DNA of 64,000 nucleotides from contig NZ_LMGI01000001.1 in NCBI RefSeq assembly GCF_001427105.1, positions 434,001 to 498,000 on the forward strand, read 5' to 3'. Under the pieces are notes generated by a model that searched no databases, was not told the DNA's origin, and saw only the letters and a list, made by a program, of their open reading frames with translations. The translations under genes and the position numbers were made by a program. Positions 192-28,587 of this stretch are shown one piece after another (position 1 is the first letter of the stretch; each line of letters starts with the position of its first letter). The stretch comes from Sphingopyxis sp. Root154. Lineage in GTDB: Bacteria; Pseudomonadota; Alphaproteobacteria; Sphingomonadales; Sphingomonadaceae.

Positions 192-692
192 TCAGGCGGC
201 GGGCGCGAGTCCTTGTCCTCCAGTGAGCGCGGACTGGTCGTGGCGAAGCTTGAGAGGCGCTGAATCCGTCAGGTCGAACACAAGCTCGATCGCGGCAATA
301 CGGAGCGCTCCATTCTCGATCCGGAGCCTGCCGGTGCAGCAGGCGGTCGCGATCGGAACCGCCTGCTCGGCCTCGACCCGGGTCACAAGCAGGTAGCAGC
401 GAAACGCCGCGTCTCCGTCGCTGTTCGGGAGGAGGTGCAAGTTGGTGCAGAGATGGCGAAGGGGCGCGATCCCTTTCATTCGGCTTGCGCCGAGGCCCGC
501 CACCAGCTCCTCCCGGCCGCGATAGCTCCCGCTCACGACCGCCTCGAAGCGGCTTGCGCGCGAGTCGCTGCGCGACACATATTCGGCGTCCACCGTGAAG
601 TGGCGCGGCCAGGCAGCCATATCCGCGGCGTCATAGTCGTACCACCATGCGCCAAGTAGGCTTTGCGCCTCGGCAGGGCCGACACCGGGCAT
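192..692 (-). CDS. NTF2-like / SnoaL-type protein of unknown function
   Basis: A 166-residue protein without signal peptide. The N-terminal helical segment with WWYDYD and a following HFTVDAEY strand, then a conserved-looking beta-rich half, match the NTF2-like cone fold used by SnoaL-type isomerases, dehydratases and many orphan proteins. Its ATG shares one base with the stop codon of the upstream TIM-barrel gene (TGATG), so it is probably translationally coupled to it. It is the last enzyme-like gene before the receptor. It may catalyse a small isomerisation or elimination step, but no catalytic residue can be assigned. The start is fixed by the overlap. Confidence 0.65.
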   Translation of the reverse strand: MPGVGPAEAQSLLGAWWYDYDAADMAAWPRHFTVDAEYVSRSDSRASRFEAVVSGSYRGREELVAGLGASRMKGIAPLRHLCTNLHLLPNSDGDAAFRCYLLVTRVEAEQAVPIATACCTGRLRIENGALRIAAIELVFDLTDSAPLKLRHDQSALTGGQGLAPAA

Positions 693-1678
693 CAGTCGAC
701 GGCCCGGTCGGCCATCCGGCCGCGGCAGATGTCGACATGCGCACGAAGCACGCTGACCGGGTCCTCGGCAAAGTCGAATTCGGCGAGCGCCCAACCGTCC
801 CAGCCGGCGCGGCCGACGATGTCCATGAAGCGATCCCAATCGACGATCCCTTCGCCGACCCAGCGGAAGTGCGACATCATCACCTCGTGCCGTTCGAGGA
901 AATCGCCCTCGAGCGACCGGCCGTCGAGCGGTTGGTCGGCGTCCTTCCAGTGCGCCACGGGGATGCGGTCGAGATGGCGTTCGAGAATGGCAACGGCATT
1001 GCCGCCATCGAGCGTAACGTGGCCGGAATCGAGGCACATGGCGACGCAGGCCGGGTCGGTAAGCTCCATCAGCCGGTCGATGTCGCCGTCGCGCGAGAAG
1101 AGCGAATAGGCATCGGTATGGAGAGCGATCTTGCAGCCATGCCGCTGCGCGAGGCTTCCCAATCGATTGAGCTCATCGGCCACCTTCTCATGGACGTCCG
1201 CGGGGACCTCTACATAGGCCGCGTCGCCGAATTCGAGGCGCGGCAAGGTCCCCATCACGATGAGCTCGCAGCCCACGCTGGCCAGGAAGCGTGCATGATC
1301 ATCGACAAGCGCCGACGCCTCGGCGCGCCCTTCCCCGTTCGACAGGCCCGGCCGGATCAGATGACCGCCTTCCATGTAGCTTGATGCGATGCGCAGCCCG
1401 CGTTCGGCACAGGCCGCCTCGACGCCCGCGGCGCTGCCATAGGCCTTGAGCGCGCCTTCATAGCCCGCCGGGACCGGCGCAAGTTCAACGCCCGCGAGGC
1501 CCGCATCGCGCGAGGCATCGAGCATAAGGTCGAAATAGGCCCGCGGGTCGGCGTAGGCCGCCTCGACATAGGCGGGATAGCTTGTTTCCGCCGGCAGGCC
1601 GAAAAAGGTAGGGTGGAAAAAGGTAATGAGACTCGTGCCCCATTTGGGACCGCGCGCAGCAGCGGCGGGCGCGCTCAC
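692..1678 (-). CDS. Sugar phosphate isomerase/epimerase family TIM-barrel protein (xylose-isomerase-like)
   Basis: A 328-residue cytoplasmic protein of the AP-endonuclease-2 / xylose-isomerase-like TIM-barrel superfamily. Candidate divalent-metal ligands are visible: an acidic residue in GVELAP, the HTDAYS motif in mid-protein, CLDSGHV, and a C-terminal LAEFDFAED segment. The family includes IolE/IolI, hydroxypyruvate isomerase, tagatose epimerases and sugar-acid decarboxylases, so the exact reaction is open. Its ATGA start overlaps the stop of the Gfo/Idh/MocA gene. Two distant paralogues of this fold in one operon (the other at 2811-3734) suggest two successive steps, for example isomerisation and decarboxylation. 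Confidence 0.8.
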   Translation of the reverse strand: MSAPAAAARGPKWGTSLITFFHPTFFGLPAETSYPAYVEAAYADPRAYFDLMLDASRDAGLAGVELAPVPAGYEGALKAYGSAAGVEAACAERGLRIASSYMEGGHLIRPGLSNGEGRAEASALVDDHARFLASVGCELIVMGTLPRLEFGDAAYVEVPADVHEKVADELNRLGSLAQRHGCKIALHTDAYSLFSRDGDIDRLMELTDPACVAMCLDSGHVTLDGGNAVAILERHLDRIPVAHWKDADQPLDGRSLEGDFLERHEVMMSHFRWVGEGIVDWDRFMDIVGRAGWDGWALAEFDFAEDPVSVLRAHVDICRGRMADRAVD

Positions 1679-2814
1679 GCCTGCCCCTCCTTGGATGCCG
1701 ACGCGATGTCGATCCAGTCACGCGTCTGCGCGGACCTCGCGACGGCCTCGACCACTTCCTGGACATGCGCTGCGTCGGAAAAATCGGGTGCCGCCGGCGT
1801 TCCCGAGACAATCGCCCGCACGAAGCTTGCAAGCTGTGCCGCCGAGCCGTCGACATAGCCATAACCCAGGCCCGGGATCGGGTACCAGAGCGAGGGCTCA
1901 CCGGCGATCACATGGCGGAACCCCGCCTTGTCCATCGGGTCGTCGACGAAAGCGAGCTGGATTTCATTATTCTTGTTCCAGTCAAACTGGAGCGCGCCCT
2001 TGCTGCCATCGACTTCCATGCGGATCGCGTTGGCGCGGCCCGCGGAATAGAAGCTCGCGCTGAAGGTGCCCATCGTGCCATTGGCAAATTCGGCAAGCCA
2101 CATCGCGCCGCCATCGGGGACATCGGCGTCGGGTACCTCGTCGGGTCCCCAATTTCCTGCGGACGCATGTGCGTAGCTGCGGTCGAGCGCGACGACCCGC
2201 TTGATGCGGCCGCACAGAAAGAGCGCCATGTCGATCACGTGCGAGCCCAGATCGCCCGTCGCGCCGGAACCGCCCGTGCTGCGCTTCTTGCGCCAACCGA
2301 AGTCGGGCACCCAGAAACCGCCGTCGGCGAGATAGCTGGCGCGCAGTTGCAGCGGCCGGCCGAGATCGCCTGCGGCGAGCATCGACTTCGCGTGCGTGAG
2401 CATCGGGGTGAAGCGATAGTTGAATCCCACCTGGTTAACGACGCCGCTCGACGCCGCGGCGATGGCGAGTTCCGCCGCCTCGTGGCCGTCATTGGTAATC
2501 GGTTTCTCGCAGAAGACATGCTTGCCGGCAGCCATTGCGGCAGAAGCGATCTCGGCATGCATTTGCGGCGGCGTGACGATGTCGACGATATCGATCGCGG
2601 CGTCCGCGATCACGTCGCGCCAGTTGTCGCTGCTGCGATTCCAGCCGAGCTGCGCTGCGGCCTTGGCTGCGGCACCGGCGTCGACATCGACGAGCACCTC
2701 CCGAACCAGCCGCGCATCAAGGCCGTCGAGAAATCCCGCATGCGCGTAGGCAAGGCTATGCGCCTTCCCCATGAATCCGGCGCCACCGATAAGCGCGACA
2801 CGAAGCTCCTTCAT
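1675..2814 (-). CDS. Gfo/Idh/MocA family NAD(P)-dependent oxidoreductase
   Basis: A 379-residue sugar or polyol dehydrogenase. Residues 8-20 carry the GGAGFMGKAH Rossmann dinucleotide motif and the EKPI motif follows near residue 105, both hallmarks of the Gfo/Idh/MocA family; the C-terminal half is the usual mixed-sheet substrate domain. Such enzymes oxidise a sugar hydroxyl or anomeric carbon, or interconvert keto-sugars. Start and stop both overlap neighbours by ATGA, placing it in the middle of the leftward operon. Known D-apiose dehydrogenases belong to this family, as do many 3-keto-sugar and inositol enzymes, so substrate assignment needs phylogeny. Confidence 0.88.
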   Translation of the reverse strand: MKELRVALIGGAGFMGKAHSLAYAHAGFLDGLDARLVREVLVDVDAGAAAKAAAQLGWNRSSDNWRDVIADAAIDIVDIVTPPQMHAEIASAAMAAGKHVFCEKPITNDGHEAAELAIAAASSGVVNQVGFNYRFTPMLTHAKSMLAAGDLGRPLQLRASYLADGGFWVPDFGWRKKRSTGGSGATGDLGSHVIDMALFLCGRIKRVVALDRSYAHASAGNWGPDEVPDADVPDGGAMWLAEFANGTMGTFSASFYSAGRANAIRMEVDGSKGALQFDWNKNNEIQLAFVDDPMDKAGFRHVIAGEPSLWYPIPGLGYGYVDGSAAQLASFVRAIVSGTPAAPDFSDAAHVQEVVEAVARSAQTRDWIDIASASKEGQA

Positions 2815-3734
2815 TTCGTCCTAAACTCCTTGATTTCGACGCCCTCGTAGGCGCAGACTTCTTCGATGATTGTGGTGAGGTAGGCGCGCCCCCGGGCGGC
2901 GTGGGTGATCGCATCCCCGCCATAATGCTCGATCGCGAGAGGACCGCGAAAGCCCGCCCGAACGGCCTCGTGCACCGCGCTGCGATAGTCGATCGTTCCC
3001 GATTGCATATCGGTGGGCTGATAGGCGGCGCCGCCTTCGGGCAGCGCGATGCGCATGCCGTTCTTCACGTGCCAATAATTTACATGCGGCGCGAGCGCTG
3101 CGAAGGTCTGATCCCACTCTTCGACGAGCGGCCAGGGCGGCCTGAGAAGATTGGCGAGATCGGGGTTGGCCCCTACCCGTTCCGCGCCGCACGCCGCGAT
3201 GATCGCGAGCAGGTTCGCCGACCGGTCGAGGACGCCGCGCTCGAACATCTCCATCGTGAGTTCGATGCCCTCGCCCCGGGCCTCGGCGGCAAGCGGCGCG
3301 AGGTTGCGGCCTGCCCGCTCGAACTCATCGTCGTCCGATGCCTGCCACTGGGGCGGCCACATCCCTGGCGCGGGCAGCGCGTGAAAGCCAAGACTGAGGA
3401 AGGGCGCCCCGAGGCGGGACGTGACGCGAATGGCGCGGCACACTTTGGCGATGGCCTCGGCCTGCTTGTCGGGGCACGCCAACGGAACATCGACGATCGA
3501 GACGCCCGCGACGTCAAGGCCTGCTGCCGCCACGCCATCGGCAAGCCGCTCGACATCGCCAGCGGAAAGGTCGGCCATGGGCAACCAGAGCTCGCTGAAG
3601 TCAACAGCCGTAAAGCCCTGATCGGCAAGCAGCCGCAACTGGGCATTCCACGTCCGCGGGTCGTGGCGTTGCTCCCGAATCGCGGCGCAGGCGAACAGCA
3701 GTCCCGTCGAGCCGGCGACGACCAGTTCCTTCAT
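2811..3734 (-). CDS. Sugar phosphate isomerase/epimerase family TIM-barrel protein
   Basis: A 307-residue protein of the xylose-isomerase-like TIM-barrel superfamily. The probable metal ligands are in ELTMEMFE (mid-protein), GANPDLAN, the YWHVKN motif and the late IEHYGGD segment. It is only distantly related to the other TIM-barrel enzyme at 692-1678, which argues against a simple duplication and for two reactions. It is coupled by ATGA overlaps to the lactonase upstream and the dehydrogenase downstream. Possible roles are keto-sugar isomerase, epimerase or 3-oxo-sugar-acid decarboxylase; the sequence alone does not decide between them. Confidence 0.8.
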   Translation of the reverse strand: MKELVVAGSTGLLFACAAIREQRHDPRTWNAQLRLLADQGFTAVDFSELWLPMADLSAGDVERLADGVAAAGLDVAGVSIVDVPLACPDKQAEAIAKVCRAIRVTSRLGAPFLSLGFHALPAPGMWPPQWQASDDDEFERAGRNLAPLAAEARGEGIELTMEMFERGVLDRSANLLAIIAACGAERVGANPDLANLLRPPWPLVEEWDQTFAALAPHVNYWHVKNGMRIALPEGGAAYQPTDMQSGTIDYRSAVHEAVRAGFRGPLAIEHYGGDAITHAARGRAYLTTIIEEVCAYEGVEIKEFRTK

Positions 3735-4693
3735 GATGAGACCCCGCTAGCGGACGCGGAGACGCCCTTGGGATAGTTCAGCGGAGCGCCCGGGACGGGC
3801 GGCGTCACCGCCGAAATCGCGAAGCCCCCGAGGTTCGATATGGCAAGGTCACGAAGGCCGGCTCCGAAATAGGAACTGTTGGCGGGCATCTTGAGGGTGA
3901 TCCCCCACTCGTCGTTGAAAAGGGTACGGCATTGACGCGCGCCGCGACGCAGCGTGAGGAGCGCGAAGGGATAATAGGAGGTAATCACGAAGCCGCCTTC
4001 GCGGTCGAGGGTCACCCCGTCGGGGCTGAATCCGGGCGTTGCGGCAATGAGGGCGAGGCGGCCCTTCGCATAGGACATGAGGCGTCGACGAAAGCTCTCG
4101 ACAAAAAAAACCGTTCCCTCGCCGTCAACGCATATTCCATTGGGAAAATGAAGCGGTCCCGTCGCCTGTATCTCGGCGGGCCCGCCTTGGGGAGGAACGC
4201 GCAGCAGGCGGCCCGAGGCATGCTCGGGGTCTTCATGTCCGGCGTCGGTGACCCACAACGACCCATCGGGGGCAAAAGCACAGTCATTGGGGAGGACAAG
4301 GCCGCCGTCGCCAGCGCGGTCGCACCAGGTGGTGACTTCGCCGGCGGGCGTGATTCGAAGCACCGCCCGCTTGATCGGATCGCACACATAAATGAAGCCG
4401 TCGCCATCGACACTCAGCCCGAGACTGACCCCGCCCGTTCGCGCGATCTCCGCAAAGCGGCCGTCCACCTCGATCCGGTAGACCTGCCCCTGGACACCGC
4501 CCGCATAGAGCCGCCCATCGGGGCCCGTCGTGATCCCCTCGGGATGGTCGAGCCCGAGACCCGGAGTCAAACTGCGGAAATCCTTGCGGCCGAGCAAGGC
4601 CCGCTTCGGCGCTCCGAACGCAGGGACAGAAACCGCAGCGGCGGTCGCGATCGACGCCGCGAAAAACTGCCGTCTTCCAAGATACTCGTTCAC
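3731..4693 (-). CDS. Tat-exported SMP-30/gluconolactonase-like protein
   Basis: A 320-residue protein starting with GTG at 4693, which has GGAG six bases upstream; longer upstream starts lack a site. The N-terminus holds a twin-arginine signal (GRRQFFAAS followed by an alanine-rich core ending at FGA), so the mature enzyme should be periplasmic. The body shows repeated beta-propeller signatures such as LDHPEGI, PDGRLYAGG, LPNDCAFAPDG and FPNGICVD, typical of SMP-30/LRE lactonases with their Asn/Asp/Glu metal site. It probably opens a sugar lactone. It follows the transaldolase by about 40 bases and overlaps the next gene by ATGA. Confidence 0.8.
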   Translation of the reverse strand: MNEYLGRRQFFAASIATAAAVSVPAFGAPKRALLGRKDFRSLTPGLGLDHPEGITTGPDGRLYAGGVQGQVYRIEVDGRFAEIARTGGVSLGLSVDGDGFIYVCDPIKRAVLRITPAGEVTTWCDRAGDGGLVLPNDCAFAPDGSLWVTDAGHEDPEHASGRLLRVPPQGGPAEIQATGPLHFPNGICVDGEGTVFFVESFRRRLMSYAKGRLALIAATPGFSPDGVTLDREGGFVITSYYPFALLTLRRGARQCRTLFNDEWGITLKMPANSSYFGAGLRDLAISNLGGFAISAVTPPVPGAPLNYPKGVSASASGVSS

Positions 4694-4734
4694 CAACTTC
4701 TCCTCTCGCCGCCGCGCGCTTCGGGCAGCACCGG

Positions 4735-5388
4735 TCAAATGATCGCCTGCCCCGTTTTTTCCCAGTCGCTGACAAATTGTGCGATGCCCTTTGCTGTCAG
4801 GACATGCTCGACCAGCGCGTGAATGACCGGCGCCGGGATTGTCGCGATGTCTGCCCCCGCGATGGCGACATCTTTCACATGGTTCACCGATCGAATGGAG
4901 GCGGCGAGTATCTGCGTCTCAAAGTCATAATTGTCGTAAATCGTCCGGATTTCGCGGATCAAATCGACGCCATCGAGGTTGATATCGTCGAGGCGGCCGA
5001 CGAAGGGGGACACATAGGTCGCTCCTGCCTTTGCGGCGAGAAGGCCCTGCGTCGCCGAGAAGCAGAGCGTGACATTGGTCTTGATGCCCTTGTTGCTGAA
5101 ATGTCGGCAGGCCTGCAGCCCGGCGAAGGTCATCGGAAGCTTCACCACGACATTCTCCGCGATCGCGGCCAGCCGCTCGCCTTCGCGGACCATGGCGTCG
5201 AAATCCAGCGACGCGACTTCGGCCGACACCGGCCCGGGAACGAGCGCGCAAATCTCGCCGATCACCTCGATAAAATCCCGGCCCGACTTGGCGATCAGCG
5301 TCGGGTTCGTAGTCACGCCATCGAGAAGGCCGAACCCGTGAAGGGTCCTGATTTCGTTCACGACGGCGGTATCGACAAAAAATTTCAT
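4735..5388 (-). CDS. tal: Transaldolase (small TalC/subfamily 3 type)
   Basis: A 217-residue class I aldolase of the transaldolase/F6P-aldolase family. The N-terminus (MKFFVDTA) and TTNPTL motif are canonical, the Schiff-base lysine lies in VVVKLPMT, and [11 protein letters not shown] and SPFVGRLDD follow. The Glu in VSAEV and Phe in SPFVGR are the residues that distinguish true transaldolases from fructose-6-phosphate aldolases, which carry Gln and Tyr there. The enzyme would move dihydroxyacetone units between fructose 6-phosphate and erythrose 4-phosphate. It is first in the leftward operon, opposite the deoR promoter, and would consume the C4 phosphate predicted from the rightward operon. 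Confidence 0.88.
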
Positions 5389-5850
5389 GCGGGAGACTTT
5401 CCGTTGAGCCCTGCGGCCGCAAGGTGCCGACCCGGCGCGCCGCGGCCGCGTCGGCACGAGAATGTTAGAAATAACATCGCCTTGATATGCGATGGCGCGC
5501 ACCTCGATTGCAGGACGTGCCTTGAGCCGGGGACGCCCCGGGCGCTGCGAAAGCCAATCGGAGACATCGAGCGCAAAAGATGGCGACGCGCTGATTCAGC
5601 GCAGATGTCGGGCGCGATCAGGGCGTGCTGAACGCTTGATCGACTCGCAACGGATGTCGTTATGCCATTCAGGTTGGCGCCAAATCTGCGCATGCGGCCT
5701 GCTCCCTTCCAGTGATTTCCTCACCTCTATTGCAGAAACGTAACAGCCATTTTTGAGACACGCAACACAGATTCTGGTTGATCATGTGATCTTTTGTGTT
5801 ATTTTCACATGCGTGATGATCGCGGCATCGACCGACGACGGGGAGAGATT
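5389..5850 (+). promoter_or_regulatory. Divergent promoter region between transaldolase and deoR operons
   Basis: This 462-base stretch carries no supportable gene. It must hold the promoters for the leftward operon (start 5388) and the rightward deoR operon (start 5851). The segment nearest deoR, about 5740-5815, is noticeably AT-rich compared with its surroundings and contains the inverted repeat listed separately. No canonical -35/-10 pair stands out on either strand. Confidence 0.6.
5783..5811. promoter_or_regulatory. Candidate DeoR-family operator (inverted repeat)
   Basis: CATGTGA at 5783-5789 is the exact reverse complement of TCACATG at 5805-5811, separated by an AT-rich 15-base spacer. 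It lies 39 bases upstream of the deoR start codon in the divergent promoter region, where an autoregulating DeoR repressor would bind. It is seen in the sequence; its function is inferred from position. Confidence 0.4.
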
Positions 5851-6621
5851 ATGGCCAGAGATGACCGAAAGCAGCAGATTCTGGGGATGCTCGAAGACCG
5901 CGGAAGCGTCGAAGTCGAGGCACTCGCGCAGCAATTCTCGGTGTCGAAAATGACGATCCATCGCGACCTCGACGATCTGGAGAGCGAGGGCGTGCTCCGG
6001 AAGATCCGCGGCGGCGCGACGATCGAGGCGGGCATACAGTTCGAGAGCGACTTCCGGTTCCGGACGCGTCAGGACAGCGATGCCAAGGACGCCGTCGCGC
6101 GCGCCGCGATGGAATTGGTCGAACCCGGCATGACCGTGATGCTGGCCGATGGCACGACGACGGCGGCACTCGGGGCCATGCTGATCGAAAAGCGCCCGAT
6201 TACAGCCATTACGAACAATGCTGCAATCATGGACAGCCTGCGCAGCGATGCAGGGATCAACCTGATCGCCCTCGGCGGACGCTATTCGGGAAAATATAAC
6301 GGATATTTCGGCGTGCTTGCCGAGCAGAGCCTCGCCAGCCTGCGTAGTGACATCGCATTTATCACCGCGCCCGCGGTCTCGGGCAGCCAGGTCTTTCACA
6401 TGGACGGCGATGTCGTGCGCACGAAACGCGCCATGCTGCGTGCCGCGGCGAAGTCATGCTTGCTGGTTCTCCACCGACAGTTCGATCGCGTCGCCTTGCA
6501 CATGTTCGCCGACCTGTCCGAGTTCGACTGGATCATTGTCGACAGGCTTCCGGAATCGAACATCTGCGACGAACTGGCGGCGCGCGGCATCAAGCTGACT
6601 GTAGCGGGCGAGCCGCTCTAG
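5851..6621 (+). CDS. DeoR/GlpR family transcriptional repressor
   Basis: A 256-residue regulator. The ATG at 5851 is preceded by GGGGAGAG; an earlier in-frame ATG lacks a good site. Residues 1-60 form the DeoR winged helix-turn-helix (RKQQILGMLE, MTIHRDLDDLE, GGAT), and residues about 80-240 the ribose-isomerase-like effector domain with LADGTTT and NN motifs. These repressors usually sense a phosphorylated sugar intermediate, so the ligand is likely a product of the downstream kinase. It sits between two divergent catabolic operons and probably represses both. Confidence 0.9.
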   Translation: MARDDRKQQILGMLEDRGSVEVEALAQQFSVSKMTIHRDLDDLESEGVLRKIRGGATIEAGIQFESDFRFRTRQDSDAKDAVARAAMELVEPGMTVMLADGTTTAALGAMLIEKRPITAITNNAAIMDSLRSDAGINLIALGGRYSGKYNGYFGVLAEQSLASLRSDIAFITAPAVSGSQVFHMDGDVVRTKRAMLRAAAKSCLLVLHRQFDRVALHMFADLSEFDWIIVDRLPESNICDELAARGIKLTVAGEPL

Positions 6622-6665
6622 GCCACGAGAGGACCGGTTCGGTCCGCCTTCAAAAAGGGAGGATC

Positions 6666-6690
6666 GGTCGGTGTCCTTTGTCGACCGACC
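6666..6690 (+). repeat. Intergenic inverted repeat between deoR and the isomerase gene
   Basis: GGTCGGT (6666-6672) and ACCGACC (6684-6690) can pair around an 11-base loop, 20 bases before the start of the TPI-like gene. No T-run follows. It may tune expression between the regulator and the enzymes, or stabilise a processed mRNA end; neither is shown by the sequence. Confidence 0.35.
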
Positions 6691-6710
6691 TCCACTAACT
6701 AGGATATGAG

Positions 6711-7505
6711 ATGAGCCTCTGGATCGGTACAAGCTGGAAAATGAACAAGGATCTTGCGCAGTCGCTGGACTTCGCGGACCGGCTTGCAACGTCCGGCGTG
6801 ACCGTGGCGGCGCAAATCAAGCCATTTGTGATCCCGCCCTATACCGTGCTTCGCGACGTCGCGGCCCGCCTCGAGGGTTCCGGCGTCCACGTCGGTGCGC
6901 AGAATATGCATTGGGCCGACGCCGGGGCATGGACCGGCGAGATATCGGCTCCGATGCTCAATGATTGCGGCGTGACGCTCGTCGAGCTCGGCCATGCCGA
7001 ACGACGTGCTCATTTCGGGGAGACCAACGAGACGGTTTCGCTCAAGGTCGCGGCCGCTGTCCGGCATGGGCTCACGCCGCTTGTCTGCGTCGGGGAAACC
7101 CTTTCCGAGCGCGAGGCGGGTGCGACGGAGACGGTGCTCGGCGAACAGATAGAGACGGCCCTGCAAGGCCTTCCGCCCGAACAATATGCCGCGCCGATCC
7201 TGCTCGTATATGAACCCGTCTGGGCGATCGGCGAAAAGGGCATGCCCGCCTCGGCCTCATGCGCCAACGAGGGCCTCGCCTTTATTTCCGCCACGGCAGA
7301 ACGGATTGCCGGACGCGCACTGCCCTGCCTCTACGGCGGTTCAGTCGACGCGGCGAATTGCGAGGCGCTCATCGAACAACCCCATGTCGACGGGCTCTTC
7401 ATTGGACGCTCTGCCTGGGAAGTCGAAGGCTTCATCGACATCTTGTCGCGCTGTGGCTCGGCAACCGCCTCCCCGGGCGAGCCACGGCTGTCGTGCACGT
7501 CATGA
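6711..7505 (+). CDS. eryH: Triose-phosphate-isomerase homologue, EryH/LerI type (L-erythrulose-1-phosphate isomerase)
   Basis: A 264-residue TIM-barrel isomerase with catalytic His95 (ELGHAERR) and Glu168 (VYEPVWAIG) as in TPI. Three features separate it from housekeeping TPI: GTSWKMN instead of GNWKMN (Ser8 for the usual Asn), GHAERR instead of GHSERR, and a loop-6 sequence GEKGMPASA instead of the TGKTAT type. These changes are characteristic of the TPI-like isomerases in erythritol and threitol pathways, which convert L-erythrulose 1-phosphate to D-erythrulose 4-phosphate. Kinase and RpiB-like partners follow immediately. The symbol is by similarity; substrate is inferred from motif and context. 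Confidence 0.75.
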   Translation: MSLWIGTSWKMNKDLAQSLDFADRLATSGVTVAAQIKPFVIPPYTVLRDVAARLEGSGVHVGAQNMHWADAGAWTGEISAPMLNDCGVTLVELGHAERRAHFGETNETVSLKVAAAVRHGLTPLVCVGETLSEREAGATETVLGEQIETALQGLPPEQYAAPILLVYEPVWAIGEKGMPASASCANEGLAFISATAERIAGRALPCLYGGSVDAANCEALIEQPHVDGLFIGRSAWEVEGFIDILSRCGSATASPGEPRLSCTS

Positions 7506-7630
7506 ACGCCTCGAGAGTGGAGGACGGACGGCGCCGCACGAGCGGAACAAGGCCGAACAGCCCGCCGCGCTCGAGACTGAAAACAAGGTTGGGCGGTACG
7601 CATCAACCGATAGAATCGCTGGGAGTAGAC

Positions 7631-9304
7631 ATGTCCGGAATGCTTGTTGAATTGGATGATTTCGTGCCCGAGGCGCTCGCGGGCTTTTGCGATCTTCATC
7701 GCGACATTGTCCTCCAGGTGGCCGGCGGGGTCGTCCGTGCCCGTACGACGCGAAAAGACAAGGTCGCGCTCGTCGTCGGCGGCGGCTCCGGACATTATCC
7801 CGCTTTCGCGGGCTATGTGGGGGCTGGCCTTGCCGACGGCGCGGTCGTCGGCAACATCTTCGCTTCCCCGTCTTCGCGCCAGGTGCGCGACGTGGCGCGG
7901 GCCGCCGAAGGCGGCAAAGGCGTGCTCCTCTGTTTCGGCAACTACACGGGCGACGTGCTGAACTTCGAGCTTGCCGCCGAGCGGCTGCGTTCGGAGGGCG
8001 TGCCGGTACGGATCGTGAAGGTCACCGACGACGTCGCAAGCGCTCCGGAAGCGCAACGGTCGATCCGGCGCGGCGTCGCGGGCGATCTCGTCGTTTTCAA
8101 GATCGCCGGCGCCGCGGCCGAGCGCGGCCTGTCGCTCGACGTGGTCGCGGATCTGGCCGAGGCCGCCAATGATGCGACACGCTCATTCGGCATTGCCTTT
8201 CGCGGCTGCACCATGCCCGGCGCCAGCGAACCCCTGTTTTCCCTCCCGCCGGGCGACATGGGTGTCGGGATGGGCATCCACGGTGAGCCAGGGGTCCGCG
8301 AACAGCCGCTCTGCAGCGCGCAGACGCTTGCGGCGCTGCTGGCCGAGCCGCTGCTGGCCGAAATGCCGCCAGGTGCACCGCGTCCCGTCGTCGTGCTGAA
8401 CGGCCTCGGTGCAACGAAGGGCGAGGAGCTTTTCTACCTCTGGCATCACATCCGCGCCTATTTGCGCTCGCAGGGCGTTGAACCGATCGCCGCCGAGGCC
8501 GGCGAATTCGTCACCAGCTTCGACATGGGTGGCTGCTCGCTCACAATGTCCTGGCTTCATGACGAACTGCTCGACCTTTGGCATTCCCCGGCGTTCGCGC
8601 CCGCGTTTCGCCGCGGCGCATTCGCTGACCTGGTCGAGGCCGGCACCGTCATGGTCCCCGCCCCGCCGCCGCCCGCCGGACGGGCTGCCGACGCGGCCGA
8701 GACGGCGCGGGTGCGCAAGCTGGTGTGCGCGCTGGAAGCGATCGCGGCCGCTCTCGGCGAGGCGGAACCGGAACTAAACCGCCTCGATGCGATCGCAGGA
8801 GACGGCGACCATGGCCGCAGCATGGCCGCGGGCGCACGCGCCGCGGGGCTAGCGGCGCGCAACGCGCACGCCAGCGAGGCCGATCTGGGCGCGGTGCTGA
8901 TATCCGCGGCAGACGCCTGGTGCGATGCGTCGGGGGGCACCTCGGGCGCCCTTTGGGCGGCGGGCCTGCGAGCCGCCGCGAGCAGCCTTGAGCCGGGGCG
9001 CCCCCAGCCGCTTTCGGCGCTGCAGGATGCCGCGGACACAGTCATGCGGCTGGCGGGGGCGCGCGCAGGCGACAAGACGGTCGTCGATGCATTGCTGGCG
9101 GCGGTCGAAGCTGCGCAGGGCGGAACCCTGCGGGAAATTGCCGCGGCGGCCACGCGTGGTGCCGAGGCGACGGCCTCAATGGCCGCACGAGCGGGCCGCG
9201 CGCGGCCCCTTGCGGCGCGAAGTGTCGGTCATCCCGATGCTGGCGCAACCTCTTTTGCGATCTGTTTGCGGGTCGCAGCCCAAAGCTTGGAACATGGAGA
9301 ATGA
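7631..9304 (+). CDS. Dihydroxyacetone/erythrulose kinase, fused DhaK-DhaL
   Basis: A 557-residue single-chain, ATP-dependent kinase. The start at 7631 has GGGAG five bases upstream. The N-terminal DhaK domain shows GGGSGH (residues 50-55) and the substrate-binding His217 in IHGEPG, which forms a covalent hemiaminal with the ketose. The C-terminal DhaL domain holds GDGDHGRSM and SGGTSGAL for ATP-Mg binding. The fused layout uses ATP, not the PTS. Between an EryH-like and an EryI-like isomerase, the expected substrate is erythrulose rather than dihydroxyacetone. Its last four bases overlap the next start (ATGA). Confidence 0.88.
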
Positions 9305-9771
9305 CGGTGGTTCAGAATGACGGATTGCGGATCGCGGTCGGCAGCGACGAGGTTGGCCAGGGCTTCAAGGAAGCGTTCCTGAAGGAGCTGAGCGCCATGG
9401 ACAATGTTCGCGAGGTGATCGACGTCGGTCCCGTCGATGCGGCGCAGCCCTATGCCGAGATCGCCCGGGGCGCCGCCGAGCTTGTCACCAGCGGGTGTGC
9501 GGACAGGGCGCTTCTCATTTGCGGGACGGGCCTCGGCATGGCGATCAGCGCCAACAAGGTCGCCGGAATCCGCGCCGTCACCGCGCACGACAGCTATTCG
9601 GTCGAACGGGCGATCCTCAGCAACAATGCCCAGATACTCTGCCTCGGCCAACGGGTCATCGGACTTGAACTCGCGCGCCGGCTCGTACGCGAATGGCTGA
9701 CCTACCGCTTCGACAGCAATTCGCCGTCGGCGGCAAAGGTCGCCGCCATCGAAGCGCCTTCGAAAATTTGA
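9301..9771 (+). CDS. eryI: RpiB/LacAB-family isomerase, EryI type (D-erythrulose-4-phosphate isomerase)
   Basis: A 156-residue member of the RpiB/LacA/LacB family. [12 protein letters not shown] (anion hole and catalytic region) and [15 protein letters not shown] are the family signatures. In canonical RpiB the N-terminus reads GSDHAG; here it is GSDEVG, which marks divergence from housekeeping ribose-5-phosphate isomerase. In erythritol pathways EryI converts D-erythrulose 4-phosphate to D-erythrose 4-phosphate, and that reaction fits the preceding EryH-like isomerase and kinase. It overlaps the kinase by ATGA. The symbol is by similarity and context. Confidence 0.72.
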
Positions 9772-9818
9772 TCTAATATTTGAAATTTCAATGGAAAATT
9801 CGAGTGGGAGGAAAGACA

Positions 9819-12245
9819 ATGACTGGAAATGCTTCAAATCGCAGAAACGCTCTGAAAACGTCGGTGGTCCTCGCGGTCCTCGCGCTTGCTTCGGCAAACG
9901 CGGCGCAGGCACAGGAGGCCCCCCCGTCCGAGACAGGAAAGGACGCGGCGTCGAATTCCGGCGAAATCGTCGTGACGGCGAACAAGCGCGGCGCGGAATC
10001 GATGCAGGATATCGCCGCGAGCGTCCAGGCCATCGGCGAGGAGACGATCAGTCGCGACGCCAAGGTCGGCTTCGACGATTACGCGCGCGACGCCTCGAAC
10101 CTGACAGCGCTTAACAAGGGTCCGGGACAGACTCAGATCGCCTTTCGCGGCGTGGTTTCGGCACGTGTCAGCTTCGGGCAACCGCAGGCCCAGTCGACGA
10201 CCGGCATGTATGTGGACGATGTGCCGATTACGGATGCCGCCTATACCCCCGACCTGGGGCTGGTCGACATCAATCGCGTCGAAATTCTGCGCGGTCCGCA
10301 GGGCACGCTCTATGGCTCCAGCGCCATGTCGGGCGCTATCCGGATCATGCCGAACTTGCCGAACCTGGATCGCTTCGAAGGAAGCGCCGGCGGCCTGGTC
10401 AGCAATACGCGGAACGGCGACTGGAACTATCAGGTGTATGGCGCCCTGAATGTGCCGATTGGCGACACGCTCGCCGTTCGAGGGGTCGCCTTTCGCAATT
10501 ATCAGGGCGGCTATATCGACAATGTCTATAGCGGCGAGGATGATTATAATGATGCGGGCTCATATGGCGGCCGCTTCATGGCCACCTTCAAGCCGAGCGA
10601 CAGCTTCTCGCTTACCGGCATGTTCATCTACAACAAGCTCAAAGCCCATGGTCGTCCCGACGAATATATCCCGGGCGACCCGGACATCGTCCAGACCGAA
10701 TTTTTCAGCGGCGTGATCACGCCGATCATTGCGAACCAGGAATCGCCGCGCCAATTCGCGGTGACGAGGGACCTGCAGACGGTCAAACCCGTCAAGGAAC
10801 TGTTCGAGGATGAGCTGAAGATCTACAGCCTCAAGGCCGAATATGATTTCGGGTCCTTCAACGCAACCGTCGTCGGCTCAAGACTGGACCGGACGCTGGC
10901 AACGATCCTCGACGACAACCAGCGCGTTCGCGGCATTTTCGGTCCCAACCATCTGGTAACCGGCGAGCCCGTTCTCGCAAGCCTGAGCAGCAACGTACGG
11001 GAAAAAAGGAACACCCTCGAGGCGCGACTTGCCTCGGGCGCGGGCTCGCGGATCAAATGGGTGGTCGGGGGCTATTATGAGGATTTCAGAAAAGACTTCG
11101 AGCTGAGCGCCCCCATTCGGGATCTCGACAGCATGCTGGCGGCGATCGGGGGCCTTCCCCCCGGCGAAAGCTCGTCTTCCTTCTATCAGACGCCCGTCGA
11201 CAATGTGCTGTTCTACGGGCTGGACGACAGTCGCGGCAATCAGAAATCCGTTTTCGGAGAAATCACGCTCCCGATCCCGTTCATCGCGCAGGACAAGCTG
11301 TCGCTCACCCTGGGCGGCCGTTATTACAATTACGACCTGACGGCGAGCAAGGCGTCATCCGGGTTTGTCATCGGCCCGGTGCCGACGGGCTCGACCTTCA
11401 CGATCAAGGAGGACGGGTTCAATCCGAAGGTAGCACTGGAATTCAAGGCGAATGAAGACTTCTTGCTCTATGGCTCGGTCTCCAAAGGCTTCCGAACCGG
11501 CGGGACGAACGAGGCCCTGCCCGGTCCGAGCACCAATATCGGTGCACAGTGCATTGCCGAACTCGCATCGTTGGGCCTCTCCGGTCAAACCGACACCTAC
11601 GGCTCGGATTCGCTGACCAACTATGAGGTTGGCGCGAAGACCAGCTGGCTCGACCGCAAACTCAACGTCAACGCGGCGCTCTTCTACATCGACTGGAAGA
11701 ATATCCAGACAAACGTCTTCCTGAAATGCGGCTTCAGCATCAAGGCGAACGAGACGAGCCAGATCAGCAAGGGGGCGGAGTTCGAAATCAACGCACGGGT
11801 CACCGACTCCCTGACGCTGAACTTGAACGCGTCCTACACAAATGCCGAACTGGCCAAGGATTCGCAGACGCTGGCCGCGCGCAAGGGCGATCGCGCTCCC
11901 TACGTCCCGGAATGGAATATCGGCGGAGGATTCCAATATAGGCGCCCGGCCGAATTCGTCGGGCCGAACGCCGAGTTCTACGTCAACGGAGATGTTTCCT
12001 ATCTCAGCGAGGCCTTTTCGGAATATTCGGTAAGCCCGAGCGTGCGCCGTCTCAAAGTTCCCTCGTCTGTCATCGGAAACCTGGCAGTCGGGATCGATAC
12101 AGGCCGTGTCAGCGTCGGCCTGTTCGCCAAAAATCTTTGGGATGAGCGGATTGTCACCTCGATCGATACGGATCGAAATCAGCCCGCGACATACACCCGC
12201 GCCCGCCCGAGGACTGTCGGCGTCAATCTTTCCGTGGATTTCTAG
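9819..12245 (+). CDS. TonB-dependent outer-membrane receptor
   Basis: An 808-residue receptor. The start at 9819 follows GGAGG by eight bases; the 13-codon-longer version has no site. A signal peptide ends near AAQAQ, then a TonB-box-like EIVVTANKR, a plug with ILRGPQGTLYGSSAMSGAIRI, and a C-terminal beta-barrel ending in an aromatic residue (SVDF). It follows the RpiB-like gene and is the likely importer of the sugar or glycoside used by this locus. No SusD or FecI/FecR partner is present, as is usual in sphingomonads. The specific ligand cannot be read from sequence. Confidence 0.92.
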   Translation: MTGNASNRRNALKTSVVLAVLALASANAAQAQEAPPSETGKDAASNSGEIVVTANKRGAESMQDIAASVQAIGEETISRDAKVGFDDYARDASNLTALNKGPGQTQIAFRGVVSARVSFGQPQAQSTTGMYVDDVPITDAAYTPDLGLVDINRVEILRGPQGTLYGSSAMSGAIRIMPNLPNLDRFEGSAGGLVSNTRNGDWNYQVYGALNVPIGDTLAVRGVAFRNYQGGYIDNVYSGEDDYNDAGSYGGRFMATFKPSDSFSLTGMFIYNKLKAHGRPDEYIPGDPDIVQTEFFSGVITPIIANQESPRQFAVTRDLQTVKPVKELFEDELKIYSLKAEYDFGSFNATVVGSRLDRTLATILDDNQRVRGIFGPNHLVTGEPVLASLSSNVREKRNTLEARLASGAGSRIKWVVGGYYEDFRKDFELSAPIRDLDSMLAAIGGLPPGESSSSFYQTPVDNVLFYGLDDSRGNQKSVFGEITLPIPFIAQDKLSLTLGGRYYNYDLTASKASSGFVIGPVPTGSTFTIKEDGFNPKVALEFKANEDFLLYGSVSKGFRTGGTNEALPGPSTNIGAQCIAELASLGLSGQTDTYGSDSLTNYEVGAKTSWLDRKLNVNAALFYIDWKNIQTNVFLKCGFSIKANETSQISKGAEFEINARVTDSLTLNLNASYTNAELAKDSQTLAARKGDRAPYVPEWNIGGGFQYRRPAEFVGPNAEFYVNGDVSYLSEAFSEYSVSPSVRRLKVPSSVIGNLAVGIDTGRVSVGLFAKNLWDERIVTSIDTDRNQPATYTRARPRTVGVNLSVDF

Positions 12246-12285: not shown

Positions 12286-12428
12286 TGCCCTGCTCCCGAT
12301 AAGCAAAGGTGCCGAGCGAGACCCCGCGAGGTCCGAGACCGAAGCGCAGCCGGGGCGTTTCTCGTCCCATGTCCAACGATGCCGCAGGGACTATTTCTTG
12401 CCAGTCACGTAGCCACACGGAAAGTATC

Positions 12429-12911
12429 ATGAACAAAGCAGTTTCAATGTTCGGCCCGCCTCATCAACTTGGCTACGTCGTTCCCGACATGGAATCGGCG
12501 ATAAAAATGTTTGAAACGATCTATGCCTTTGACGAGACGCGGCGGTTCGACTTCAACGCGCCGGAGGTATATGTTCACGGAAAATTATTCCCGATGCACC
12601 TTGATATATTCCATGGGGTGCAGGGGGATCTTGAATATGAACTGATCCAGCCGTTGAGCGACGGCCCTCACAAATGGTTTCTCGATCAGGTCGGAGGCGG
12701 CTTTCATCACATCGGCTACAATGTCGATGCGTACGAGCCATGCGCAGAATTGCTGACGCAAGCCGGCATGAGCATATTAATGACGGCCGACATGGATGTC
12801 TTCGTGCCCGGCGGGATGAAACCGGATCACCATGTACGAGGCGCATATTTCGAACAACCTGGACTAGGCAACATGCTGATCGAAGTCGTGGAGCGGGTCA
12901 GCTATGGCTGA
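12429..12911 (+). CDS. VOC (glyoxalase/dioxygenase fold) family protein
   Basis: A 160-residue vicinal-oxygen-chelate fold protein. It starts with HQLGYVVPDMESAIKMFE, the usual first VOC strand and helix, and the second module begins at FHHIGYNVD; the C-terminus ends MLIEVVE. His in HQLGYV, the His in FHHIGY and Glu in LIEVVE are candidate metal ligands, as in glyoxalases and methylmalonyl-CoA epimerase. The ATG at 12429 has GGAAAG upstream. It stands alone on the plus strand, facing the TBDT at 13112. Substrate unknown. Confidence 0.8.
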   Translation: MNKAVSMFGPPHQLGYVVPDMESAIKMFETIYAFDETRRFDFNAPEVYVHGKLFPMHLDIFHGVQGDLEYELIQPLSDGPHKWFLDQVGGGFHHIGYNVDAYEPCAELLTQAGMSILMTADMDVFVPGGMKPDHHVRGAYFEQPGLGNMLIEVVERVSYG

Positions 12912-13111: not shown

Positions 13112-15550
13112 TCAGAAGCGGGCCTTGAGACGCAGATACCATTCGCGCGGGCGCGCATAGGATGCCTGCGACTGGCCGGTGAAGGCAAAGTCGGTATAGC
13201 CGCTCAAAATATAGGCTTTGTCGGTCAGGTTCGTGACCCCGGCGGTGACCGAAAGCCCCTCCCCCATTTTAGCCGTGAGGCTTGTGTTGATCAGGTGGAA
13301 TCCAGGCTGCGATGTGAAGGGCGTGTTGATGGCGTCCTTGTACACCCGGCTCTTGTAGGACCAGTCGCCATTCCACACCAGCTTCCCGCTGCTCCAGCTG
13401 AACAGGTCGACCGTCGCCGCCGCATTGAACGACCATTTCGGCGTTTCGACGAGCCTGTTGTCGACCGTCAGCGGCGCGGCGCGCGGATCGACCTCCAGAT
13501 AGCGGGCGTCGATGTAGCTCCCGCCGGCCTGAAGCATGATCCAGTCAGCAAAAGCGGCCTCCATCTCCACTTCGACCCCGCGGATGCGGGCACGGCCGGC
13601 GTTGCGAACCTTTGGTGCAAAGCCATCGTTCACGACGATCTGGAGCTCCTTGTAATCGGTCCAGAAGAAGGCTGTGTTGAGGCGCAGACGACGATCGAAC
13701 AGCATGGACTTCAGGCCGACCTCATAGAGTTCCGCGATCTCGGGCTTAAAGCTCGGGATTTCCGCTTCGGGCGGAAAGACGCGCGAGGTAAACCCCCCGC
13801 CCTTGAAGCCTTTCGAATAGTTCAGATAGGCAAAGACATCGTCCGAAGCCTTGTAGTTGATCGACGCCGAGGGCGTCATCTCCTGATAGGATACGCGCCC
13901 CGTCGTTTGCGGGAGGATTCGGTCACCCGCCCGGATCGGCTGGGGATTGGTCGGGGTCGATGTCAGCGGGTTGGTCAGATAAAAGGGAAAGGGCGATCCC
14001 GGCGGCAGCGGCGCCTGCGCCGCGGGATGAACCGCAATCACATATTGATCGGGGGTAAAGCGCTTCACCTCGTCGGTGTAGCGCAGACCTCCCGTCACAC
14101 TCAGCCGGTCGGTCAGCTCATAGGTCATCTGCGAGAAAAAGGCATAGCTGTTGTTCCGGACTCGGCCACCCGACTGGAACAACACGGGCGGCGTGTTCAG
14201 ATAGGCAAGGTCGGTCCCGCTTTCCTTGAAATAGAATGCGCCGATCAGATATTTGAGCCGGGAGCCGAGCAAGGCGCCCGACGCCTGGAGCTCCTGGCTG
14301 AACTGCTTGTGTGAATAATCGAAATTGTCGGTTCGGGTAATCGCGAGCGGCGTGTTGTCGGTATCGTGGTAGAAAGCGGCATCGAGCGATCGATAAGCGG
14401 TGATCGACTTGAGGCCGAAGGCATCGCCGCCGTCATAGTCCAGCGTCAGCGATGTGCCCCAGACGTCGGTCGCGGAGCGGTTCAGGGTCCGTGCCGGGAT
14501 GTCGATCGTCTGGCCGGGCTGGCGCCAGCGCGCGTAGGTGTCGCCGCTATCTTCCCAGGCGACGTAGGGATTGCCCGTGATCCACTGTGCACTGAAGCAA
14601 TTGGGGTTCGTCGAAAGTGCATCGGACTGCGGCCCGGCGGGTCCGAAGGCCCCGCAAACCGGCGCGTTCAGGAACACATTGTGGAAGATACCGAAGACGG
14701 AGTCGGGGTTCACTGCGCGCAGCGACCAGGGCGAGGACTGTTCGCGCGAGCGCGTGCCGTCGACCGCGATGGTGGCGAGCAAATTGTCCGCGAGGTCGAT
14801 TTCGGCGGTCAGCCGGCCGGAATAGGAATTCTTGTTCCCACGCCGCGACCCGTCGGTCAGGATTTCCACATAACCGTCGCGCGTCTGCATGCTGCCGGCC
14901 ATCCGGAACCGCACCGCTTCGGCGACAGGGATATTGATCATTCCGCGCATATCGAAACGATCGTAGCTGCCCGTGGTAAGCTCGATCGCCCCTTCGAGAT
15001 CGGCACCGGGACGCTTGCTCGTAATCGAGATCGCGCCGCCGATCGTATTCTTGCCGAACAATGTCCCCTGCGGACCGCGCAACACTTCGAGGCGTTCGAT
15101 GTCCGCGGTATCCAGAACCGCGCCGACCGAGCGACTGATATAGACTCCGTCCAGATAGGTTCCGACGCCGGGGTCGATGGTCAGTTGAAAATCGGTCTGT
15201 CCGATGCCCCGGATGAAGACGACCGCGGAATTGCTGGCTCCCGCGATGGGCGCGCCGGTGTTGAAGACGAGGCTGGGCACGAATTTCGCCGCGCCCGCGA
15301 TGTCGTTGATGCCGCGCTCGTCGAGCGTTTCGCCGGTGACCGCACTGACCGCGACGGGCGTTTCCTGGAGATTTTCGGAGCGCTTGCGCGCCGTTACGAC
15401 GATCTCTTCAAGACCGCCGTCGCTCGCCTCCTCCGCCCTGTCCTGCGCGAACGACGGCACGGCCGGCAAGGCGAGTGCACCAATAATGGCCGATGCGGCC
15501 CCGCAGCGCCGGGCCAGGCCCCGCTTCCGATCTTGCATGCTCATGCTCAT
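13112..15550 (-). CDS. TonB-dependent outer-membrane receptor
   Basis: An 812-residue receptor. The chosen ATG at 15550 follows GGAGG; the open frame continues upstream but without a site. A signal peptide ends at PSFAQ, then EEIVVTARKRSENLQETPVAVS (short TonB-box region) and a plug with LEVLRGPQGTLFGKNTIGGAISI; the barrel ends in LRLKARF. The plug begins like many sphingomonad receptors for hydrophobic or aromatic nutrients, but ligand assignment is not possible. It is the last gene of a leftward operon: cupin, TBDT, VOC, TBDT. Confidence 0.9.
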   Translation of the reverse strand: MSMSMQDRKRGLARRCGAASAIIGALALPAVPSFAQDRAEEASDGGLEEIVVTARKRSENLQETPVAVSAVTGETLDERGINDIAGAAKFVPSLVFNTGAPIAGASNSAVVFIRGIGQTDFQLTIDPGVGTYLDGVYISRSVGAVLDTADIERLEVLRGPQGTLFGKNTIGGAISITSKRPGADLEGAIELTTGSYDRFDMRGMINIPVAEAVRFRMAGSMQTRDGYVEILTDGSRRGNKNSYSGRLTAEIDLADNLLATIAVDGTRSREQSSPWSLRAVNPDSVFGIFHNVFLNAPVCGAFGPAGPQSDALSTNPNCFSAQWITGNPYVAWEDSGDTYARWRQPGQTIDIPARTLNRSATDVWGTSLTLDYDGGDAFGLKSITAYRSLDAAFYHDTDNTPLAITRTDNFDYSHKQFSQELQASGALLGSRLKYLIGAFYFKESGTDLAYLNTPPVLFQSGGRVRNNSYAFFSQMTYELTDRLSVTGGLRYTDEVKRFTPDQYVIAVHPAAQAPLPPGSPFPFYLTNPLTSTPTNPQPIRAGDRILPQTTGRVSYQEMTPSASINYKASDDVFAYLNYSKGFKGGGFTSRVFPPEAEIPSFKPEIAELYEVGLKSMLFDRRLRLNTAFFWTDYKELQIVVNDGFAPKVRNAGRARIRGVEVEMEAAFADWIMLQAGGSYIDARYLEVDPRAAPLTVDNRLVETPKWSFNAAATVDLFSWSSGKLVWNGDWSYKSRVYKDAINTPFTSQPGFHLINTSLTAKMGEGLSVTAGVTNLTDKAYILSGYTDFAFTGQSQASYARPREWYLRLKARF

Positions 15551-15630
15551 GAAATTTCCTCCCCATTTTTCGATTTGCGCCGCCGGCCCTGGCGGCTGTG
15601 GTCCCGTGCTGCACCGTTGCAGGCGGTCGG

Positions 15631-28432: not shown

Positions 28433-28587
28433 CGGTAATCCCCTCTCCTGCTTGCCGTCGCGCGGCAAGTCGTGCGGTTTCAATATGCAGGGGCTAACGC
28501 CAGAAGACCCCATAAGGCCAACCTCAATCCGGCATGGATCATTGCTGATCGCGCACCAATTTTAAAAAGCGGCGTATCCCGATCGCG

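Follow-up and report, generated by a model that had tools for sequence, protein, structure and literature searches.

The Mycobacterium smegmatis tetritol pathway reportedly runs through EltD, LerK, LerI and DerI, and D-apiose is said to be degraded by ApsD, ApnL, ApnO and OiaC. An excerpt of PMC10733421 gives the tetritol enzyme names and reports LerI to be a homologue of triose-phosphate isomerase (TPI); that study also works with an E. coli strain without tktA and tktB, which requires supplements derived from erythrose 4-phosphate. The levoglucosan (Lgd) pathway, according to an excerpt of PMC7676230, has the dehydrogenase LgdA, the proteins LgdB1 and LgdB2 annotated as sugar phosphate isomerases, and the reductase LgdC. 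Here we describe a rare gene cluster of Sphingopyxis sp. Root154 that shares parts with each of these systems. It lies in a stretch of 64,000 nucleotides (the window; C1:434001-498000 of a 4.73 Mb genome that is 99.99% complete). A leftward operon encodes a TalC-type transaldolase, an SMP-30-like protein, a Gfo/Idh/MocA dehydrogenase (Gfo) and two TIM-barrel proteins (TIM1 and TIM2), and a rightward operon encodes a DeoR regulator, a TPI homologue, a fused DhaK-DhaL kinase (DhaKL), an RpiB homologue and a TonB-dependent receptor. We propose, with a probability of roughly 0.6, that this DeoR-controlled cluster trims an oxidised sugar to erythrulose, which would be phosphorylated and isomerised to erythrose 4-phosphate. 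The first half of the cluster looks new and the second half matches known enzymes. Among the titles and abstract openings listed for the apiose, erythritol, levoglucosan, tetritol/erythrulose, dihydroxyacetone kinase and pentonate literature, we found no description of the gene combination.

Genes were called from the list of open reading frames (ORFs) together with Pfam and NCBIfam profile scans of the window proteins. These analyses confirmed every gene of the two divergent operons that an earlier, sequence-only reading had named, in the order it had stated: by rising coordinate, TIM1-Gfo-TIM2-SMP-30-TalC on the minus strand and DeoR-TPI-DhaKL-RpiB-TonB receptor on the plus strand (Table 1). 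Overlaps of 4 nt occur at the SMP-30/TIM2, TIM2/Gfo, Gfo/TIM1 and DhaKL/RpiB junctions, and the TIM2-Gfo-TIM1 row is translationally coupled. The ATG of the small SnoaL-like gene overlaps the TIM1 stop. By eye, TalC starts at the ATG at 5388 and DeoR at the ATG at 5851, with a good ribosome-binding site before DeoR.

The regulator and the TPI homologue tie the rightward operon to a known kind of gene block. The window DeoR is 58.7% identical to the DeoR of a rhizobial locus (L097) and 56.3% identical to that of a Paracoccus plasmid (L095), where a second DeoR reaches only 29%; the gene order DeoR-TPI-RpiB is found in both loci. The window TPI is 58-61% identical to the TPIs of four plasmid loci, namely L094 (Rhizobium), L095, L097 (59.1%) and L098 (an apiose-like locus carrying OiaX). 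From its gene content (carbohydrate kinase, glycerol-3-phosphate dehydrogenase, TIM barrel, sugar-binding regulator, DeoR, TPI and RpiB), L097 can be read as an erythritol locus. The L095 set is DeoR-TPI-RpiB-fructose-bisphosphatase (FBPase)-aldolase, without EryABC-like genes in the stretch seen, and L094 has transketolase, FBPase, aldolase, TPI and RpiB, with an OiaX gene about 9 kb away. Identities of 56-59% for DeoR and 58-61% for TPI to such blocks make the rightward operon, judged by its proteins, a DeoR-TPI-RpiB block with a fused DhaKL gene inserted between TPI and RpiB. In a 20-row tree, in which some long branches were flagged, the window TPI joined five EryH-type rows (support 92/83, under the strong-support mark of the tool), while 11 housekeeping rows stood apart at 99/97. 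By eye in the translations, the K/H/E residues of TPI and the CGTGLGM motif of RpiB are intact, and so are the GIHGEP and AGDGDHG motifs of DhaKL in a 10-row alignment; we take all of these to be catalytic motifs.

RpiB and DhaKL have affinities of their own. The window RpiB is 66% identical to the DhaKL-adjacent RpiB of a cluster in Micrococcales bacterium 72-143 (L009/L099) and 63% identical to those of a Streptomyces plasmid (L122) and a tetritol-like Arthrobacter locus (L132), against 42-51% (the 51% over 100 aa only) to those of erythritol, apiose and related loci, with 45.1% for L097. In a 9-row tree that included no housekeeping RpiB, it joined the DhaKL-linked actinobacterial kind at 100/100 on a long branch. 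An RpiB of the same kind (62%) occurs in Streptomyces violaceusniger, where the annotation has no DhaKL within 9 kb. The window DhaKL is 45-53% identical to nine DhaKL proteins of apiose, tetritol-like, PdxA-linked and other loci: the PdxA-linked kinases reach 51-53%, L009 51%, L122 50%, L132 47% and the OiaC-type apiose loci 46%, while the split DhaK of L098 is at 43%. The L132 locus, which carries two alcohol dehydrogenases, a ribose-type ABC importer, DhaKL, RpiB, TPI and DeoR, looks like it fits the published tetritol pathway.

We have fair confidence that the lower module would lead from erythrulose to an erythrulose phosphate, then to D-erythrulose 4-phosphate and finally to D-erythrose 4-phosphate. 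The sequence-only reading had proposed this product for the rightward operon, and sequence, tree, regulator identity and gene order all support it. It had also named an outcome that would refute it, clustering of the kinase and the isomerases with dihydroxyacetone kinase, housekeeping TPI and housekeeping RpiB. For TPI this outcome did not occur, since the window protein stands apart from all 11 housekeeping rows, and RpiB falls with the DhaKL-linked homologues in a tree free of housekeeping RpiB. The kinase says less, as the enzymes nearest to it are uncharacterised DhaKL proteins beside PdxA-like genes.

Genome surveys point the same module towards acquisition. A TPI match at E 1e-10 was found in 58 of 60 genomes (own included), a single one in each except our own, which has two; between these, the window enzyme and the housekeeping one, identity is 35%. 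The Dak1 gene was present in one of the 60 genomes, the strain's own, and absent from all 59 relatives searched. The genome also has a second TAL_FSA gene at C1:944487. The second TPI at 35%, the sole Dak1, the second transaldolase and the affinities of the module speak for an acquired, specialised lower module rather than a housekeeping one. Gfo was found at E 1e-70 in one of 298 family genomes. When 385 genomes of the class were scanned with a Gfo model at E 1e-100, three matched, our own (697 bits) and two about half as strong (350 bits) with other near neighbours; the order to which G298 belongs (297 genomes, E 1e-125) gave G298 only. With a TIM2 model at E 1e-45, the own genome was the only match among 289 genomes of the class. 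Because Dak1 occurs in 1/60 genomes, Gfo in 1/298 and the set of Gfo, TIM1, DhaKL, RpiB and TPI again in an actinobacterium, the cluster is more than chance.

That actinobacterial cluster came to light through Gfo. Among the 80 loci listed from a collection of 84,980 species, the best Gfo relative (55%) is in L009, with a TIM1 homologue (47-48%) directly after it and DhaKL, RpiB and TPI about 8-10 kb off on the opposite strand. The stretch between the two groups in L009/L099 holds another Gfo and what by eye is a sugar ABC transporter. A third Gfo locus (47%) is on a Rhodococcus erythropolis plasmid (L091), again with TIM1 (39%) directly after it. Thus, Gfo and TIM1 form a recurring pair in all three loci, and since their neighbours differ, the pair can probably feed more than one ending. 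The L091:8916-14990 cluster, with two Gfo enzymes, hydrolase, aldolase, kinase and TIM1, looks like an inositol-type pathway. VOC/Glyoxalase_4 genes lie about 3-11 kb from Gfo-TIM1 in the three loci (window 12426-12911, L009:15210-15740 and L091:21624-22142); the window protein is 26-27% identical to its L009 and L091 relatives, which may be chance, and we dropped this link as too weak.

By its own sequence, Gfo is closest to levoglucosan dehydrogenase (6a3f, E 5e-73) and to scyllo-inositol/L-glucose dehydrogenase (5ya8, E 2e-56). The first likeness raises the question of whether the Gfo substrate is a glycoside or anhydrosugar that is oxidised at C3, with TIM1 and TIM2 eliminating and hydrating the product like LgdB1 and LgdB2 and the erythrulose module serving another part of the molecule. 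The window Gfo is 38% identical to the Gfo of an Lgd-like Arthrobacter operon (L124), the excerpt of PMC7676230 has a dehydrogenase together with two annotated sugar phosphate isomerases, and fold matches of a weak TIM1 model include 3-keto-glucoside lyases and a hydratase. However, Gfo stays far under the levoglucosan-dehydrogenase cut-off (314.9 of 650 bits), the leftward row has no second Gfo to serve as LgdC, and the TIM pair of L124 offers a single match to TIM1 (24% identity across 173 aa) and none to TIM2. We consider this scheme decidedly unlikely, and LgdB was rejected as the identity of TIM1 or TIM2. EryC was rejected as well, since neither protein matched the EryC-position protein of L097.

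The nearest solved relative of TIM1 is the inosose dehydratase IolE (3cny, E 6.6e-16), and the D-x-G-H, H-x-K-D and E residues are common to both. Its structure model is weak (pLDDT 62), and a fold search that ranks 3cny first confirms the barrel family only. In the reading that we prefer, TIM1 is a candidate lyase or decarboxylase acting on the Gfo product.

For TIM2, the nearest solved relative is an M. smegmatis protein (5tnv, E 6e-33); LerI was dropped as its identity, LerI being reported as a TPI homologue in the excerpt of PMC10733421. Relatives of TIM2 (30-33%) adjoin DhaKL in loci of Shinella (L111), Sinorhizobium (L112), Pararhizobium (L115) and Rhizobium (L123), as well as in L122. 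In the first four, PdxA-like genes and a tripartite tricarboxylate transporter are present as well; the two PdxA-like proteins tested, those of L112 and L123, scored 255 and 250 bits, under the PdxA cut-off of 290. In L122 the order is TIM2 relative-DhaKL-RpiB-GntP permease-threonate-dehydrogenase-like enzyme. Two loci of Erwinia and Pantoea (L110 and L116) have the OiaC-position TIM barrel between an ApnO-like dehydrogenase and TPI-DhaKL; since BLAST did not match TIM2 to the barrels in that position, the likeness is one of place rather than family. Because these seven loci pair a TIM barrel with a probable hydroxyacid dehydrogenase and a ketose kinase, we place TIM2 at what may be the last step before the kinase, as a candidate decarboxylase, isomerase or epimerase. 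As side observations, L111:4753-11701, L112:4710-11719, L115:4637-11573 and L123:7837-17992 are unassigned, putative acid-degradation sets probably ending in a ketose phosphate, and L122:8896-15646, which a probable GntR regulator (by eye) follows, is seemingly a sugar-acid route to erythrose 4-phosphate.

The SMP-30 protein has a twin-arginine-like signal (by eye) and distant solved relatives only, and it is a candidate periplasmic lactonase. The leftward operon appears to continue beyond the window start. In the left flank (L008), a TonB receptor, an alpha/beta hydrolase, a short-chain dehydrogenase/reductase (SDR), a cupin, a major facilitator superfamily (MFS) carrier and a second MFS gene follow on the same strand with gaps of 24-150 nt. 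This receptor (L008:15863-18118) is 37% identical to the window receptor at 9780-12245, and the best match of the MFS carrier is a galactonate-transporter subfamily, at 113 bits against a cut-off of 395.

It is plausible that a larger sugar is oxidised and shortened by the enzymes of the leftward operon. The substrate would enter through the TonB receptors and probably the MFS carrier. Lactone opening may be the task of the exported SMP-30 protein; together with the MFS carrier, such a protein would fit a lactone or a sugar acid. By analogy with levoglucosan dehydrogenase, Gfo would oxidise a secondary alcohol, probably that at C3, and TIM1 and TIM2 could convert the keto compound to erythrulose by metal-enolate chemistry. 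DhaKL would then make erythrulose phosphate, TPI and RpiB would isomerise it to erythrose 4-phosphate, and TalC would draw the product into the pentose phosphate pathway. The whole cluster was probably acquired. In the simplest scheme, a 3-oxo-pentonate would be decarboxylated, and TIM2 would serve as isomerase, epimerase or decarboxylase. Loss of CO2 from a 3-oxo-pentonate gives erythrulose directly, so a single dehydrogenase and a single metal-dependent barrel would suffice, and this is the pair common to the two clusters. Its fully specified form, in which the SMP-30 lactonase gives a pentonate, Gfo oxidises C3 and the IolE-like barrel yields erythrulose on the way to erythrose 4-phosphate, is tentative and rather unlikely. 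If this form were true, C5 sugar acids would be degraded through erythrose 4-phosphate, and the rhizobial PdxA-TIM-DhaKL and the Streptomyces GntP-dehydrogenase-TIM-DhaKL-RpiB loci would be parallel versions with other dehydrogenases.

Several observations weigh against the erythrulose reading. The set of Gfo, TIM1, DhaKL, RpiB and TPI recurs in one other genome only among the matches listed, and that Micrococcales cluster gave no match to TIM2, SMP-30, TalC, SnoaL or DeoR. The TIM2 structure model is unusable (pLDDT 49), and the TIM match of L123 is unannotated and in two pieces. RpiB falls under both NCBIfam cut-offs, those of TIGR02133 (RPI_actino; 164.5 of 168.2 bits) and of NF051858 (DerI; 147.4 of 240 bits). 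In the tree of its family, DhaKL sits on a long branch and belongs neither to the apiose/tetritol group nor to the PdxA-linked one. General models also accept three of the enzymes: DhaKL passes that for the dihydroxyacetone kinase family, TalC that for fructose-6-phosphate aldolase (FSA; 284.9 versus 245.95 bits) and TPI that for TPI (372.6 versus 293 bits).

The TalC and TPI matches would suit a dihydroxyacetone scheme, in which the upper enzymes, or TalC acting as FSA, release dihydroxyacetone, DhaKL turns it into dihydroxyacetone phosphate, TPI gives glyceraldehyde 3-phosphate and RpiB works on pentose phosphates. DhaKL keeps the dihydroxyacetone-binding His motif, and the rhizobial TIM-DhaKL loci with PdxA-like genes could make dihydroxyacetone. 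However, the genome already has a TPI and a second transaldolase, the window TPI and DeoR are closest to the erythritol-locus block, and RpiB sides with the DhaKL-linked type, which leaves this scheme unlikely.

Also against an erythrulose product, TIM1 need not make erythrulose, as IolE is a dehydratase and the L091 pair stands without the erythrulose trio; its neighbours are an IolC-like kinase, a LacD-like aldolase and a cyclase-family hydrolase. Such company, with IolE as the nearest relative of TIM1, would suit an IolG/IolE-like dehydrogenase-dehydratase pair acting on a cyclitol or derivative, with ring opening and then cleavage of the product to yield a C4 unit. TIM1 is nevertheless far under the IolE cut-off (97.5 of 290 bits), no IolB-, IolC- or IolD-like gene was seen among the cluster proteins scanned, and a C6 ring has no clear route to erythrulose, so we regard a cyclitol substrate as very improbable.

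Lastly, SDR genes near both the window and the Micrococcales clusters leave room for a polyol start. The sequence-only reading had recognised no polyol dehydrogenase; further along the leftward row, outside the window, an unassigned SDR lies at L008:14086-14907. A second SDR (L099:14570-15379) and an MDR-like ORF (L099:68-676), both by eye, lie in the Micrococcales area. The SDR of our strain might oxidise a tetritol or related polyol to erythrulose while Gfo, TIM1 and TIM2 serve a side substrate; its weaker matches include the GolD/DthD family (161.5 versus 286 bits), and an excerpt of PMC12780249 has known tetritol pathways sharing the lower module. Yet that SDR is under every cut-off shown, many other SDR families score higher, and the coupled TIM2-Gfo-TIM1 row would be left without a role in the main route. 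A polyol start is thus very unlikely.

Returning to the DeoR-controlled erythrulose cluster, the two operons share a putative DeoR-like site (Table 1). The site pattern was framed after the sites had been seen, so its zero expectation is no independent test. The 8-mer TGTTATTT occurs three times in 64 kb against 0.27 expected, and two of the three lie in the divergent intergenic region. The site pattern has no occurrence in the left flank, L008. The sequence TGTTATTATGTGACA lies before the DeoR gene of L097, and the looser pattern is not significant alone (at least one match in 49 of 100 shuffles). A sigma-70 scan of 5300-5900 found no promoter-like site.

Table 1. Features of the Sphingopyxis sp. 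Root154 cluster, in window coordinates.
Feature	Position	Strand	Basis
SnoaL-like (NTF2-fold) small protein; final leftward gene inside the window	192..692	-	Pfam SnoaL_4, 37.8 bits
TIM1, xylose-isomerase-like TIM barrel	692..1678	-	AP_endonuc_2, 92 bits
Gfo/Idh/MocA NAD(P) dehydrogenase, levoglucosan-/L-glucose-dehydrogenase-like	1675..2814	-	NF052479, 314.9 bits (cut-off 650)
TIM2, xylose-isomerase-like TIM barrel	2811..3734	-	AP_endonuc_2, 77 bits
SMP-30/gluconolactonase-like beta-propeller	3731..4738	-	Pfam SGL, 59.7 bits
TalC/FSA-type transaldolase	4735..5388	-	TIGR00875, 284.9 bits (cut-off 245.95)
Putative DeoR-like site TGTTATTTCTAACAT before the leftward operon	5462..5476	-	Pattern match
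Putative DeoR-like site TGTTATTTTCACAT before the rightward operon	5797..5810	+	Pattern match
DeoR/GlpR-family regulator	5851..6621	+	DeoRC, 131.6 bits
TPI homologue, EryH/LerI type (predicted L-erythrulose-1-phosphate isomerase)	6711..7505	+	Identity, tree
Fused DhaK-DhaL kinase (predicted erythrulose kinase)	7631..9304	+	PRK14479, 644.9 bits (cut-off 492)
RpiB homologue, EryI/DerI type (predicted D-erythrulose-4-phosphate isomerase)	9301..9771	+	TIGR02133, 164.5 bits (cut-off 168.2)
TonB-dependent outer-membrane receptor	9780..12245	+	ORF, identity to L008 receptor
VOC/Glyoxalase_4 protein, possible end of the rightward operon	12426..12911	+	Family match

The window holds further TonB-receptor-like genes. 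Together with that of the operon they lie at 9780-12245, 13112-15772, 16057-18381, 25610-28513 and 36965-39250; the first and third were confirmed by family search and the rest by eye. Around the cluster, L008:920-6070 and window 21957-23006 encode a haem protein resembling aldoxime dehydratase (182 bits against the 600 of the OxdA model), two carbon-nitrogen hydrolases, an acyl-CoA ligase and a thiolase-like gene, perhaps an aldoxime-nitrile pathway.

The cluster offers a self-contained, testable set, with a regulator, a kinase and two isomerases of predictable product beside upper enzymes of less predictable substrate. It also links unexplained Micrococcales, rhizobial and Streptomyces loci to one common ending.

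How, then, does the cluster compare with the known pathways? The apiose route via apionate, which the sequence-only reading had mentioned as one known scheme, found no support. Three ApsD-position enzymes, which share 62-71% identity among themselves, align with only part of the window Gfo and at 26-28%, and TIM1 and TIM2 have no match to OiaC-position enzymes; these ApsD, ApnL, ApnO and OiaC labels we assumed from locus context. ApnL, ApnO and OiaC gave no hit in the locus or, at E 0.001 with one query each and no positive control, in the own genome. The suggestion of a variant or new route survives. The likeness lies in the Gfo start, as in OiaX-type loci, and in the TIM barrel with a DhaKL-TPI-RpiB finish, as in L110 and L116. 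With the levoglucosan pathway the cluster shares a levoglucosan-dehydrogenase-like Gfo and two TIM-barrel proteins, but identity is low, the leftward row has a single Gfo and an erythrulose module is attached. Compared with the Brucella and rhizobial erythritol pathway, the window DhaKL would phosphorylate a ketose, whereas there EryA phosphorylates erythritol, and EryA, EryB and EryC were not recognised in 192-12245, in a search confined to the locus; the likeness to L097 is in DeoR (58.7%), TPI (59.1%), RpiB (45.1%) and the order DeoR-TPI-RpiB. Unlike the tetritol pathway, the coupled operons carry no polyol dehydrogenase, and the window TPI is 35% identical to the L132 TPI and sits on the EryH branch. 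Like that pathway, the cluster combines a ketose kinase with two isomerases, its RpiB and DhaKL being 63% and 47% identical to those of L132.

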